A stretch of DNA of 64,000 bases from an uncultured Lachnospiraceae bacterium (lineage in GTDB: Bacteria > Bacillota > Clostridia > Lachnospirales > Lachnospiraceae), in the NCBI GenBank assembly GCA_947623185.1, contig CANQGL010000002.1, forward strand, positions 1-64,000, read 5' to 3'. Positions 55,221-64,000 of this stretch are shown here, piece after piece (position 1 is the stretch's first letter; each line of letters begins with the position of its first letter). Below the pieces are notes generated by a model, which made no database searches, was not told the DNA's origin, and worked only from the letters and a program-made list of their open reading frames with translations. The position numbers and the translations under genes were made by a program.

Positions 55221-55826
55221 TCATTTTTGCGGCGGCGCGACCTCGAACACATATTTCTCATATGCGTTTATGATCTTCGTCTCACCCCGCTCCCGGATCC
55301 GGGGCATGGTGGGGTTATAATTCAGATGGACGTGGCCGTGGATAAAATAAGCCGGATGGAACGCGTCGATCAGGCTGACGAACGCCTTAAAGCCGGTGTG
55401 TGCGAGGCCGGGCTCGTCCCCGATGCCGAACGCCGGAGCGTGTGCGGCGAGAACGTCGACCCCGTGCGCGGCCCGGATCCGCGGCCAGAGCTTTAACGCC
55501 CGAAGGTCCATCTCGCGCTGCGTGTACTGGTGATTCCCCTTTTTATAGCGCATGGAACCGCCAAGGCCGGCAAAGCGCACGCCCTGATAGGTGAACACCT
55601 TGTCCTCGATGCATATGCAGCCGTCGGGCGGCGTTTTCTCATAGCGGTCGTCGTGATTGCCGTAAACATAAAGAAGCGGGCCATGGAAAAACGTGACCAG
55701 AAACGAAAGATATTCAGGAGCGAGATCGCCGCAGGAGAGGATCACGTCGATCCCCTCCAGGCGGCTCTTGTCAAAGTAATCCCACAAAGTTGGGGATTCA
55801 TGGTCCGAAATTGCCAGAACCTTCAT
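55221..55826 (-). CDS. metallophosphoesterase family protein
   Basis: LAISDHESPTLWDYFD, VILSCGDLAPEYLSFL, YVYGNHDDRYE, HGHVHLNYNP. Confidence 0.93.
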   Translation of the reverse strand: MKVLAISDHESPTLWDYFDKSRLEGIDVILSCGDLAPEYLSFLVTFFHGPLLYVYGNHDDRYEKTPPDGCICIEDKVFTYQGVRFAGLGGSMRYKKGNHQYTQREMDLRALKLWPRIRAAHGVDVLAAHAPAFGIGDEPGLAHTGFKAFVSLIDAFHPAYFIHGHVHLNYNPTMPRIRERGETKIINAYEKYVFEVAPPQK

Positions 55827-55870: not shown

Positions 55871-56064
55871 GCGGACAGTCTGCAGTCTCGTTTGCAGGTT
55901 TCGGCCCTTGAACTTCTAAGCGTGCGGGAATCTGCTAAAGGCAGGAAGGAAAATCGCAAACTCGCTTCGCTCAGACAGCGCGATTTTCCTTCCCAACGCA
56001 AATTCCCACGCGCCAAGAAGTTTGGTCGGGCCTGCAAATGCAAACGGACCTGCAGACCGTCCGC
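55871..56064. repeat. long imperfect inverted repeat (~194 bp, possible MITE-like or structured element)
   Basis: Ends GCGGACAGTCTGCAG / CTGCAGACCGTCCGC; inner arms AAGGAAAATCGC / GCGATTTTCCTT; many intermediate paired blocks. Confidence 0.85.
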
Positions 56065-56088: not shown

Positions 56089-58086
56089 TTAAAACAATCC
56101 GTCGCGGTCGCTGTAGATCCCCTGGATCCGCACCATCGGGATCGCCGCCTCCGCCAGCTCATCCTCGGCTGGGATATGTCCGATCACGTTCTGGGCCAGC
56201 CAGTCCATGCGGATGATCTCCTCGGGCGTTAAGACGCCGCTTCCGGAATCCCGGAGCGTCCCTTCCTGATCGATGAGATCGCCGGAAAAGATCCGGAACT
56301 CACCGTTTTCGATCTGGCGGCGGACAAGCTCGATGAGCGTCCGGGTGCGCTCGGGGACCGTTTTCGAGACGATCATGTCGATCATGCCCGATGAGATCCC
56401 CCACCAGTAGTTGATGGAACCGCCCATGCCGGGTTTCCTTCCGGCGGGAAGGAACGTCGTGCGGTTCCAGCCGCCGTTTAGGATCGTGAGAAGGATCCGC
56501 TGATAGAATTTCCCCCAGTGCCAGATCGACGCGGCGAGGACGGCGCCCTTTTTGTCGCGGGCGTCGTAAAGCCCGTAAAGCCGGGACTCGTTCTTCGGAG
56601 CGATGGAATCGCTGCCGCAAATGTGGCTGACGGGGACATCCCCGAACATATCCGCGCGGTCAAAGTCCTTCATCGAGGTCCACGCAAGATGGACGCGGGC
56701 GGAAGGATTCACCATCTTTACGCCAAGAGCGAAGGCGTTGATGCTGGCCGGAGTCCCGAAGACCGGGAAATCCGCGACATAGCCGATCCGGTCGGTATCG
56801 GTCAGGATGCCCGCCAGCATTCCGACGAGGAACTTCGCCTCGTAGAGACGTCCGTAATAGGTGCGCAGGTGGCCGCTGTAGGAATTTAAGGAGCAGTTTA
56901 ACAGATAGATTTGCGGCTGCTTCATCCCGGCCTTGATGCTGGGGCCGAGGAAGCGCGGCGAGGTGGTAAAGATCACCGTGCACCCGTCCGCGATCGCGGT
57001 CTCGATGGCGGTCAGACATTCCTCATCGGTCATGACCCCGTCGTAGACGCGGATCTTCACGCGGCCCTTCAGGTTTTCCTCGAGATAGAGCCTGCCGAGA
57101 TCGTGGGAGTACGTCCAGCTCGAGGTCTCGGCGGTCTTGTAGTAGATAAAGCCGACGGTGAGGACGGAGGAGGGGACGAGCCTGCGGATCGGCGAGGCTT
57201 CGACTGCCGAACCGGCCGCCTGCGGGACGGCCCGCACCAGCCGGTCGATCACGGAAGGCTCCGGCTCTTTTTCGGGCTGCAGGACGACGTTGACTTTCGT
57301 CTCCTCCGAGAGCGCCTCAAGATCGTTCCAGAGCGGCACCAGCTCTTTTCGGATCGTCTCGCGGGACTTGTCGGCCAGTCCCGCGTACCCGTATACGTTC
57401 AGATAGACCAGGAACGCGTCCCCGGCCGTGATCGGCAGGCGCGCGCCGCCGCGGTCGTTGTAGGCCTGCGTAAAGTACAGGAACGAGGAGGTAAAGAGCA
57501 TACGGTCGTCGTCGCTCCACGGCGCGCCGAACTCCTTGCCGACCAGCCTGCAGAGATCGTGGAAGCTGCCGGGTTTTGTGAAATAGACCGTATTGATGCC
57601 GGTGGAGCGGAAAAACTCGGTGAATTCATAATACACGCGCACCTCGCGCGTCCCGTTCTGTACCGGCAGGTAACGGGTGACGTAGCCCAGGACGTTTACG
57701 GCCCCGGAATATTTCAGGACGCTTACGCGCTTGTTTCCCTCTATAATATAGTAGGAGTTCATAAACTCGCAGGCGATGACGGGTTCGCGGATCCCCTCCT
57801 CGATATGGGAATCGTAGAGCGCGGACCACTTGGTCGCGAACTCGGTCCCGCCTTCCAGAAGAGGCATAAAATCGCTGGAAAAGGCCCTTGTGCGCCCTGC
57901 GGTCTTGGTCCCGGCGATACGGTCGATCGGGATCTCGATCAGTCCGAGGTCCTGTTCGCCCGCCGTCTCGGAAAAAGTCAGCAGTTCGTCAAGGACCTGA
58001 AGATACGGAAATTTTCCGGCCGAAACATCCTGTCGGAACGTTTTCTGTGCGAGCTTGTGAGCCCGCGAATAATCCGATGCAGACAT
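56089..58086 (-). CDS. ParB/Srx-like N-domain fused to BMP/PnrA-type ligand-binding domain
   Basis: 665 aa; LIEIPIDRIAGTKTAGRTRAFS ... YYIIEGNKRVSVLKYSGAVNVLGYV (ParB-like), then VLTVGFIYYKTAETSSWTYSHDLGRLYLEE...GYVADFPVFGTPASINAFALGVKMVNP (BMP-like); no signal peptide. Confidence 0.82.
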   Translation of the reverse strand: MSASDYSRAHKLAQKTFRQDVSAGKFPYLQVLDELLTFSETAGEQDLGLIEIPIDRIAGTKTAGRTRAFSSDFMPLLEGGTEFATKWSALYDSHIEEGIREPVIACEFMNSYYIIEGNKRVSVLKYSGAVNVLGYVTRYLPVQNGTREVRVYYEFTEFFRSTGINTVYFTKPGSFHDLCRLVGKEFGAPWSDDDRMLFTSSFLYFTQAYNDRGGARLPITAGDAFLVYLNVYGYAGLADKSRETIRKELVPLWNDLEALSEETKVNVVLQPEKEPEPSVIDRLVRAVPQAAGSAVEASPIRRLVPSSVLTVGFIYYKTAETSSWTYSHDLGRLYLEENLKGRVKIRVYDGVMTDEECLTAIETAIADGCTVIFTTSPRFLGPSIKAGMKQPQIYLLNCSLNSYSGHLRTYYGRLYEAKFLVGMLAGILTDTDRIGYVADFPVFGTPASINAFALGVKMVNPSARVHLAWTSMKDFDRADMFGDVPVSHICGSDSIAPKNESRLYGLYDARDKKGAVLAASIWHWGKFYQRILLTILNGGWNRTTFLPAGRKPGMGGSINYWWGISSGMIDMIVSKTVPERTRTLIELVRRQIENGEFRIFSGDLIDQEGTLRDSGSGVLTPEEIIRMDWLAQNVIGHIPAEDELAEAAIPMVRIQGIYSDRDGLF

Positions 58087-58095
58087 GGCTCCTCC

Positions 58096-58947
58096 TTAAA
58101 ATGATTTGTTCGTCTTTCTCCAGTTGTCGGGAGAGACGCCGAAAATGTTTTTGAACGCTCTGGAAAAATGAAGCTGGTTCTGGTAGCCGCAGAGCTTTCC
58201 GATCTCGTTGACCGTCATGTCGGACAGCTTTAGATACTCGGCCGCCCGGCTCATGCGGTAATAGATCAGGAAGTGCTGCACGGTCTGGCCGGTGCTGTCC
58301 TTGAACAGCTTCCCCAGATAGTTGCGGTTCAGGTTGCAGTAGCTGGCGATGTCCTCGACGGTGATCGCGTAGCTGTAATTCGATTCAATAAAGGATATGA
58401 CCTCCTTGACGTAGAAATCCTTGAGATTCCCGACGGGCAGCAGCCGCCTGGTCGCAGAGGAGCGGATCAGGGCGTCGAAGAACAGGTACATGTGGCCGAT
58501 CTGGTTGATCGGCGAGCTGTACGGATTGTCGATGATGTTCATGATCTCGTCCTTGATGAGGGAGGCGTATTCCTTTTTCCGGATGCGGTAGACCGGCTGG
58601 TCGAAGTTTAGGCCGGCCATTTCCATGAACTCCAGCGCGCGGACGCCGTCGAACTCTACCCACGCGTATTCCCACGGGAGGTGTTCGTCCGCATAGTAGG
58701 TCGTGACCTGCCCCGGGCAGATCAAAAAGCCCTGCGACGCCTCAAGGTGATAGATCTTTGCGATCCCCGAGGAATCGGTCGAGTCCAGCGTGCCCTTTCC
58801 CGAGAAAACATAATGGAATAAGTAATGATTCCGCTTTGCGGGGCCGAAGGAATGCAGCGGCGCGCATTGTTCCCATCCGTACTGAAACAGCGTCGCGTCG
58901 ATGTTCTTATCGTTCTGAAAGGTGTTGAATTTGACTTTTTTATCCAT
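58096..58947 (-). CDS. AraC family transcriptional regulator
   Basis: Cupin-like N-domain (KGTLDSTDSSGIAKIYHLEASQGFLICPGQVTTY); C-terminal ITVEDIASYCNLNRNYLGKLFKDSTGQTVQHFLIYYRMSRAAEYLK...GYQNQLHFSRAFKNIFGVSPDNWRK. Confidence 0.94.
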   Translation of the reverse strand: MDKKVKFNTFQNDKNIDATLFQYGWEQCAPLHSFGPAKRNHYLFHYVFSGKGTLDSTDSSGIAKIYHLEASQGFLICPGQVTTYYADEHLPWEYAWVEFDGVRALEFMEMAGLNFDQPVYRIRKKEYASLIKDEIMNIIDNPYSSPINQIGHMYLFFDALIRSSATRRLLPVGNLKDFYVKEVISFIESNYSYAITVEDIASYCNLNRNYLGKLFKDSTGQTVQHFLIYYRMSRAAEYLKLSDMTVNEIGKLCGYQNQLHFSRAFKNIFGVSPDNWRKTNKSF

Positions 58948-62247: not shown

Positions 62248-64000
62248 ATGTCAATCAGATATAATACAGGCAGCAGAACATTCATACTTGAGACGCGGGA
62301 CAGTTCGTACCTGATGAAGATCAGCAGATACGGGAACCTGTTGCATTTATATTATGGGGACCGGATCCCCGACACCGACCTCGACTACCTGATCCAGAAC
62401 CAGGACAGGGGTTTTTCGCCGAATCCGAACGAGGCCGGAAACGACAGGGCGTTTTCCCTCGACTTTCTGGCGCAGGAGTTCTCGACGGAAGGAAAAGGCG
62501 ATTACCGGACGCCAAGCATCTCGGTAGTCAACGGCGACGGGAGCAGGATTTTTTCCGGTAAGGTTGACGGTTACACGATTTACAAAGGAAAATACAGTTT
62601 AGAGGGAATGCCCTCCCTGCGGGCCGGGGCGAAGGATTCGGTGGAAACGCTGGAGATCTCGCTTCGCGATACGGAGAGCGGCGCGGAGGCAGTGCTCTGC
62701 TACAGTGTGTTTGAGGAAAAGAACATCATCACCCGCACGACGCGGTTCGTAAACGGCGGGAGCGCGGACATCAGGCTCACGAAGCTCATGTCTGCCACCG
62801 TGGACTACCATGTGTCGGACTACGATCTGGTGTACTTTGCCGGAAGGCACCTGATGGAGCGTGAGTTCACAAGAATTCCGGTGAGCCGCGGACTCCATTC
62901 GATCGGAAGCAGCCGCGGGGCTTCCTCCCATCAGTACAATCCGTTCCTGATCGTCTGCGAGAAGAGAGCGGATGAGGACATGGGAAAGTGCTACGGATAT
63001 TCCCTCGTTTACAGCGGAAACTTCATCATCGAGGCCGAGAAGGACCAGTTCAGCAGACTGCGGATCAACGCCGGCATCAATCCCAGAGGCTTTGAGTTTG
63101 TGATCGGACCGGGGGAGAAATTCCAGGCCCCCGAGGTCGTGATGGCTTACTCGAAGCACGGTTTTACGGGACTGTCGCATCTGTACCACGACGTTTACCG
63201 TGAAAACCTCTGCCGTTCGCCTTATGCGAAAAAGGCGCGGCCGGTCCTGATCAACAGCTGGGAGGCCGCATACTTCGACTTTGACGATGAAAAGCTTCTT
63301 GATATCGCAAAAGATGCCGTCGGAATGGGCGTCGATCTGTTCGTGCTCGACGACGGCTGGTTCGGAAAACGCGACGACGACAATTCCGGACTCGGAGACT
63401 GGACGGAGAACCGCAAAAAGATCAAATGCGGGCTGTCCGGACTTTCCGACAGGATCCACGAACTGGGACTTCAGTTCGGGATCTGGATCGAGCCGGAGAT
63501 GATCTCCGAGGACAGCGATCTCTACCGTGCCCACCCGGACTGGCGCCTTGCGGCGGCGGGACGGCCGATGAGCCGCGGAAGAAATCAGCTCGTTTTGGAT
63601 CTCTCCCGCGCGGACGTGTGCGATTACCTGATCGATTCGATCAACACGCTCTTAAACAGCGCGAAGATCGAATACATCAAATGGGACATGAACCGCAGCA
63701 TCAGCGACGTGTGGTCGGCCCTGCTTCCCGCCGAGCGGGAAGGCGAGGTGTTCCACCGCTATGTGCTCGGCCTGTACCGTGTGATGGATGAGGTGATCCT
63801 AAAGCACCCGGAGGTCCTCTACTGCGGCTGCTGCGGCGGCGGCGGAAGATTCGACCCGGCGATGCTTTACTACGAGCCGCAGATCTGGTGCAGCGACAAC
63901 TCGGACGCGAAGGCCAGACTGAAGATCCAGTACGGGACCTCGTTCGCCTATCCGGTCAATACGCTCGAAGCGCATGTCTCGGTCTGCCCGAACCATCAGA
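62248..64000 (+). CDS. alpha-galactosidase (GH36), truncated by window end
   Basis: Open frame to the edge; VLDDGWFGKRDDDNSGLGDW, FGIWIEPEMISEDSDLYRAHPDW, EYIKWDMNRSISD, YEPQIWCSDNSDA. Confidence 0.93.
   Translation, partial: MSIRYNTGSRTFILETRDSSYLMKISRYGNLLHLYYGDRIPDTDLDYLIQNQDRGFSPNPNEAGNDRAFSLDFLAQEFSTEGKGDYRTPSISVVNGDGSRIFSGKVDGYTIYKGKYSLEGMPSLRAGAKDSVETLEISLRDTESGAEAVLCYSVFEEKNIITRTTRFVNGGSADIRLTKLMSATVDYHVSDYDLVYFAGRHLMEREFTRIPVSRGLHSIGSSRGASSHQYNPFLIVCEKRADEDMGKCYGYSLVYSGNFIIEAEKDQFSRLRINAGINPRGFEFVIGPGEKFQAPEVVMAYSKHGFTGLSHLYHDVYRENLCRSPYAKKARPVLINSWEAAYFDFDDEKLLDIAKDAVGMGVDLFVLDDGWFGKRDDDNSGLGDWTENRKKIKCGLSGLSDRIHELGLQFGIWIEPEMISEDSDLYRAHPDWRLAAAGRPMSRGRNQLVLDLSRADVCDYLIDSINTLLNSAKIEYIKWDMNRSISDVWSALLPAEREGEVFHRYVLGLYRVMDEVILKHPEVLYCGCCGGGGRFDPAMLYYEPQIWCSDNSDAKARLKIQYGTSFAYPVNTLEAHVSVCPNHQ

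Follow-up and report, generated by a model that had tools for sequence, protein, structure and literature searches.

The conserved partner of the ParB-BMP fusion protein encoded in the window (the 64,000-nucleotide stretch of Lachnospiraceae DNA analyzed here) is a metallophosphoesterase, a gene left out of the earlier note on this DNA. The near-invariable co-inheritance of the two genes suggests that they form an undescribed two-protein module. The fusion and AraC open reading frames are genuine, and their coordinates bear out the earlier placement of a 665-aa frame 9 bp after the AraC stop on the same strand. The features of the region are listed below.

58096-58947, minus strand: AraC-family regulator, a clade-specific neighbor that goes with the divergent SBP operon
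56089-58086, minus strand: ParB/sulfiredoxin (Srx)-like and BMP/PnrA fusion protein, 665 aa, lacking an export signal
57664-57966, minus strand: predicted ParB/sulfiredoxin-fold core, residues about 41-141 (AlphaFold2, Foldseek, and hhalign to the Fe-S variant family)
57727-57741, minus strand: P-motif-like GxxR sequence E116-G-N-K-R120, unchanged across 24 homologues
57313-57648, minus strand: helical domain, residues about 147-258, from the AlphaFold2 model
56167-57165, minus strand: BMP/PnrA domain with an AtzT-like fold and a changed pocket, residues about 308-640
55871-56064, no strand assigned: near-perfect hairpin of about 200 nt between the fusion and phosphoesterase genes, unusual for the pair
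55221-55826, minus strand: calcineurin-like metallophosphoesterase, 201 aa (PF00149, E = 1.2e-8), linked to the fusion by adjacency and co-occurrence

Co-occurrence was scored in 299 Lachnospiraceae genomes representing 298 genera. The phosphoesterase is present in 113 of 113 genomes with a full fusion and in 1 of 186 without one, that one being a partial match (Fisher p about 2e-83, kinship ignored). The association persists where the assembly separates the two genes (G013, G030, G044, G109, and G238) and where gene order or strand is altered (G128 and G175). The phosphoesterase lies directly downstream of the fusion in nearly every relative, and the genes are neighbors on one strand in 93 of the 94 loci holding the pair, a set that includes some loci twice. 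Spacing over the linked loci has a median of 1 bp; 84 pairs are separated by ≤50 bp and 44 overlap, mostly by 4 bp. The genes of this conserved operon are apparently co-transcribed, and the frequent short overlap suggests translational coupling. The same pair occurs in Erysipelotrichaceae (L068, L069, and L074). It is also present in Collinsella aerofaciens, a member of the Actinomycetota; the two products there carry the RefSeq names 'BMP family ABC transporter substrate-binding protein' and 'metallophosphoesterase'. The pairing of the fusion with the phosphoesterase is well supported.

The 262-bp gap between the two genes in the window is the widest of the 93 linked pairs and holds the hairpin. 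The 249-nt stretch bearing it has a minimum free energy of -130 kcal/mol and a z score of -9.5. A repeat family was considered for the hairpin and rejected, as it is single copy in the genome.

The phosphoesterase scores 36 bits against PF00149 (threshold 21.5) and 19.4 bits against TIGR00040, which is under the 56.25 cut-off. Conserved residues in the family are D8, D34, N57-H58-D59, H129, H163, H165, and H167. These proteins have the D, GD, GNHD, H, and GHxH metal motifs in common with YfcE-type calcineurin-like phosphodiesterases (PF00149, TIGR00040), but differ in the sub-cut-off TIGR00040 score and in the metal-binding histidine of D-x-H, which is replaced (E/V/I/P/C) in every member with a readable motif; the other metal motifs are invariant. 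With the D-x-H histidine missing, the protein is a putative phosphoesterase.

The fusion domain order is kept across homologues from 100% down to about 33% identity, which argues that the fusion did not arise by chance. Homologues share the same fusion start context, are 630-673 aa long, and are usually present in one copy per genome. A hydropathy scan found no hydrophobic N-terminus or transmembrane-like stretch in 24 fusion homologues, with a top 19-residue Kyte-Doolittle mean of 1.72. The lack of an export signal recorded in the earlier note thus extends to the family, and the fusion protein is predicted to be cytoplasmic. One full-length relative with 36% identity (L167, NZ_OY725717.1 569269-571892) is named an ABC transporter substrate-binding protein in RefSeq despite belonging to this signal-less family.

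The AlphaFold2 model of fusion residues 1-262 has a pLDDT of 92.7. Foldseek matches the model to ParB, Noc, KorB, sulfiredoxin, SbnI, and SerK structures, and nearly all of the 50 matches listed are of the ParB/Srx/SerK/SbnI type. Sulfiredoxin (6ky4) aligns over 88 columns with a TMt of 0.67 and an rmsd of 2.9 Å, and Noc (7ol9) matches at E = 3e-4. The modeled N-terminal core belongs to the ParB/sulfiredoxin fold, in agreement with the assignment previously made by eye. Sequence profiles do not reach this region: PF02195 (ParB) hits 0 of 24 fusion homologues at E up to 1, Pfam and NCBIfam profiles give no match to the fusion N-terminus, and the N-terminal profile matched nothing when run against PDB sequences. 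EGNKR (residues 116-120), invariant in the 24 homologues, occupies the position of the GxxR P motif defined for ParB-fold proteins in the survey of Kaljevic et al. 2025 (PMC12704722).

The window protein resembles the ParB-CTPase fold fusions described in the text of that survey in having a ParB/Srx-type fold, a GxxR P motif, and an extra domain. It differs in being too diverged for Pfam ParB_N and in having no ParA among the conserved neighbors found; distant loci have no recurring neighbor except the phosphoesterase. The parA neighbor expected of a canonical ParB of a ParABS system does not recur in the distant loci. The ParB-like domain may bind NTP, but the survey text reports that 17 of 28 purified ParB-fold proteins bound none (PMC12704722). 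The N-terminus also has its core fold in common with sulfiredoxin and the SerK/SbnI free-serine kinases. The P motif of SerK is DGHHR; the fusion instead has EGNKR, added helical and BMP domains, and a phosphoesterase partner.

The BMP/PnrA assignment of the C-terminal region holds. PF02608 matches fusion residues 310-470 with E = 2e-17 (63.6 bits against a gathering score of 24.1), and a PDB search identifies AtzT (6pi5) as the closest solved relative with E = 9e-34 over residues 308-639, together with the Brucella protein 3s99. Identity to these structures is about 28% over the whole domain, and Foldseek confirms the BMP fold on the full fusion model (TMt 0.80). The guanine contacts in AtzT are Tyr45, Ser97, Phe98 (backbone), Glu165, Trp194, Asn218, and Asn220 (PMC6834077). 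By sequence alignment, Ser97, Glu165, and Trp194 are retained in 18 of 18 standalone BMPs from this phylum, which also have an aromatic residue at position 45. The fused family keeps the position-45 aromatic (W324 in the window fusion) and mostly keeps Ser97, whereas Phe98 is mostly Pro, Glu165 is Gly in 24 of 24 homologues, and Trp194 falls in a gap of the sequence alignment in 24 of 24. The fused pocket appears rebuilt, and with Glu165 and Trp194 lost it is unlikely to bind a purine base in the manner of AtzT. The nucleoside ligand proposed earlier is weakened by these losses, as is a purine-binding reading of the domain in general. The window protein therefore has the BMP fold in common with the AtzT/BMP-PnrA SBPs, but is predicted to be non-exported, is fused to a ParB-like domain, and has a changed pocket.

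A search of the phylum with the N-terminal domain alone identified relatives in which the BMP domain is exchanged for a different tail. Other families have 308-361-aa proteins that join the ParB-like domain to ferredoxin-like Cys motifs (a 2[4Fe-4S]-like tail) in place of BMP; the motifs are degenerate in f61 members. The Fe-S variant family aligns to fusion residues 27-183 with an hhalign probability of 98.5%. Its members give weak matches to DUF1015 and to ParB_N (PF02195, best value 0.0064), and the region equivalent to the helical domain gives a weak DUF4032 match. The P motif is DGN/HHR in the Fe-S group versus EGNKR in the BMP group and Box I also differs, so catalysis has possibly been lost in the BMP group.

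A phosphoesterase of the same family adjoins the Fe-S-tailed gene in nine of the nine examined loci with full-length proteins, and a short ParB-like protein, a minimal version of the family, lies beside the same phosphoesterase at L162. The phosphoesterase was found in 17 of 300 genomes of the phylum. Coordinates read by eye place a ParB-like gene next to it in 15 of these; of the remaining two, G314 has a ParB-like gene on another contig and G299 shows none. The presence of the same phosphoesterase beside Fe-S-tailed proteins argues that the conserved core is the ParB-like domain plus the phosphoesterase and that the C-terminal, sensor-like input is exchangeable. The BMP-partnered phosphoesterases form a single clade in the phosphoesterase tree (support 98/91), as would be expected had the BMP domain been acquired once. 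Examples of ParB-like/ferredoxin-tail genes adjoining the phosphoesterase are L132:3685-4632, L133:5932-6933, and L143:5870-6889, which have a middle region weakly similar to DUF4032. By eye, the gene that follows in L132 and L133 resembles endonuclease III.

Proximity of the fusion to AraC and the sugar operon is incidental and particular to the window's clade. The earlier note had treated the fusion and AraC as a candidate one-operon ligand-sensing system, a model in which they would control the SBP/GH36 galactoside operon. The pair is indeed divergent from the SBP, permease, and GH36 genes, and the 9-bp, same-strand arrangement speaks for that model. The GH36 alpha-galactosidase (Melibiase) gene at 62248-63999 is part of this SBP operon and runs past the window end. 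Neighborhoods were compared at 44 loci chosen by similarity and at 20 more spread over the family. The AraC, SBP, permease, and GH36 genes adjoin the fusion in the closest clade only (about 25 loci, with fusion identities of 52% or more), and this linkage is absent at every more distant fusion locus; the conserved neighbor is instead the phosphoesterase. Within the clade, adjacency is broken in L035, L041, and L043 by 1.4-2.5 kb of intervening DNA. Divergent AraC-SBP orthologues also occur without a nearby fusion among 200 family genomes, G110 being fusion-less and G149 and G183 carrying the fusion on another contig, so AraC belongs with the sugar operon. Joint control of the galactoside genes by AraC and the fusion is therefore very improbable.

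The reading we prefer, to which we give an even chance, is that the fusion is a cytoplasmic regulatory sensor, a ligand-controlled NTP-binding switch that works with the phosphoesterase. The C-terminal BMP domain would close on a small intracellular ligand, and closure would control the N-terminal ParB/Srx-like nucleotide-binding domain. We infer that the output would be exerted jointly with the phosphoesterase, either by regulating it or by opposite action on a shared phosphorylated or nucleotide substrate. Points against this reading are the survey's ParB-fold proteins without NTP binding, the divergent P motif and Box I of the BMP group, the missing D-x-H histidine of the phosphoesterase, and the wide, hairpin-bearing gap in the window. 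The intracellular sensor of the earlier note survives in part: nucleotide binding and ligand sensing remain the best available model, and the AraC partnership falls with its clade-limited linkage. A broader scheme is offered tentatively and is less probable than the switch itself. It would be a modular control system in which a nucleotide-driven ParB/Srx-type domain acts near-obligately with the metallophosphoesterase and takes exchangeable inputs, namely BMP as a cytosolic receptor (Lachnospiraceae and some others) or, in other families, a redox-type 2[4Fe-4S] tail, in a signal-controlled cycle of synthesis and removal or of phosphorylation and dephosphorylation.

A kinase/phosphatase pair is an unlikely alternative. 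The ParB/Srx-like domain would be a SerK/SbnI-type small-molecule kinase, the phosphoesterase would remove the phosphate, and either tail, BMP or Fe-S, would serve as an allosteric sensor. The structural matches include SbnI and SerK, the Fe-S variants carry DGN/HHR and weakly match DUF1015 and ParB_N, the phosphoesterase pairing is near-obligate, and SerK was once annotated as ParB (PMC5120207). The structural match is nevertheless limited to a shared core of about 95 residues with a TMt of about 0.25, EGNKR stands in place of DGxHR in the BMP group, and the SerK catalytic glutamate was not located in the fusion. Even less probable is a one-component transcription or DNA-binding regulator, made up of the BMP sensor and a ParB-like/helical part that binds DNA, for which the phosphoesterase would be the main target gene. 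LacI-type regulators similarly couple a cytosolic PBP-fold sensor to an output domain, the full-model matches include Cra and PurR, and the Noc and KorB matches reach over the helical region. Those long alignments superpose poorly (rmsd about 16 Å), the output domain is ParB/Srx-like and not a LacI HTH, and Pfam detects no HTH in 24 homologues. The phosphoesterase also appears to be co-transcribed and translationally coupled, not a separate target.

That the fusion is simply the exported BMP solute-binding component of an ABC importer is scarcely credible. The RefSeq name of the Collinsella relative and the PF02608 match point that way, but the 24 homologues lack a signal or transmembrane segment, the N-terminus is extended by 300 residues, and there is no conserved ABC or permease neighbor beyond the AraC clade. 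An anti-phage defense module is highly doubtful. The phosphoesterase (55221-55826) matches the PADLOC candidate PDC-S10 with E = 1.5e-16, but the fusion has no PADLOC match, one copy per genome is the rule, and no defense system was recognized among the recurring neighbor clusters. A mobile-element origin was also rejected. Phage and plasmid collections yield few full-length matches, in unannotated fecal phage records and in 'plasmid' records, the latter maybe chromosomal pieces, and IMG/VR gave matches to the BMP part only. Relatives of the fusion are found in metagenome-derived 'phage' records (BFVD A0A8S5LUW4; MT836456.1), which perhaps hold bacterial DNA assigned to phage during binning.

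It is already known that the ParB fold can be fused to other domains. A literature search found no description of the BMP-ParB fusion or of the fusion/phosphoesterase pair, and the main text of the ParB-fold survey mentions neither a BMP nor a metallophosphoesterase partner (PMC12704722). ParB-fold proteins that act beyond chromosome segregation are a newly recognized, wide class of NTP switches whose partners are mostly unknown. The fused sensor and its co-inherited phosphoesterase provide a concrete partner and input in about 38% of the sampled genera of a major gut family. These results suggest that cytoplasmic sensors have been annotated as exported nutrient-binding proteins, with consequences for the annotation of transporters in gut genomes.
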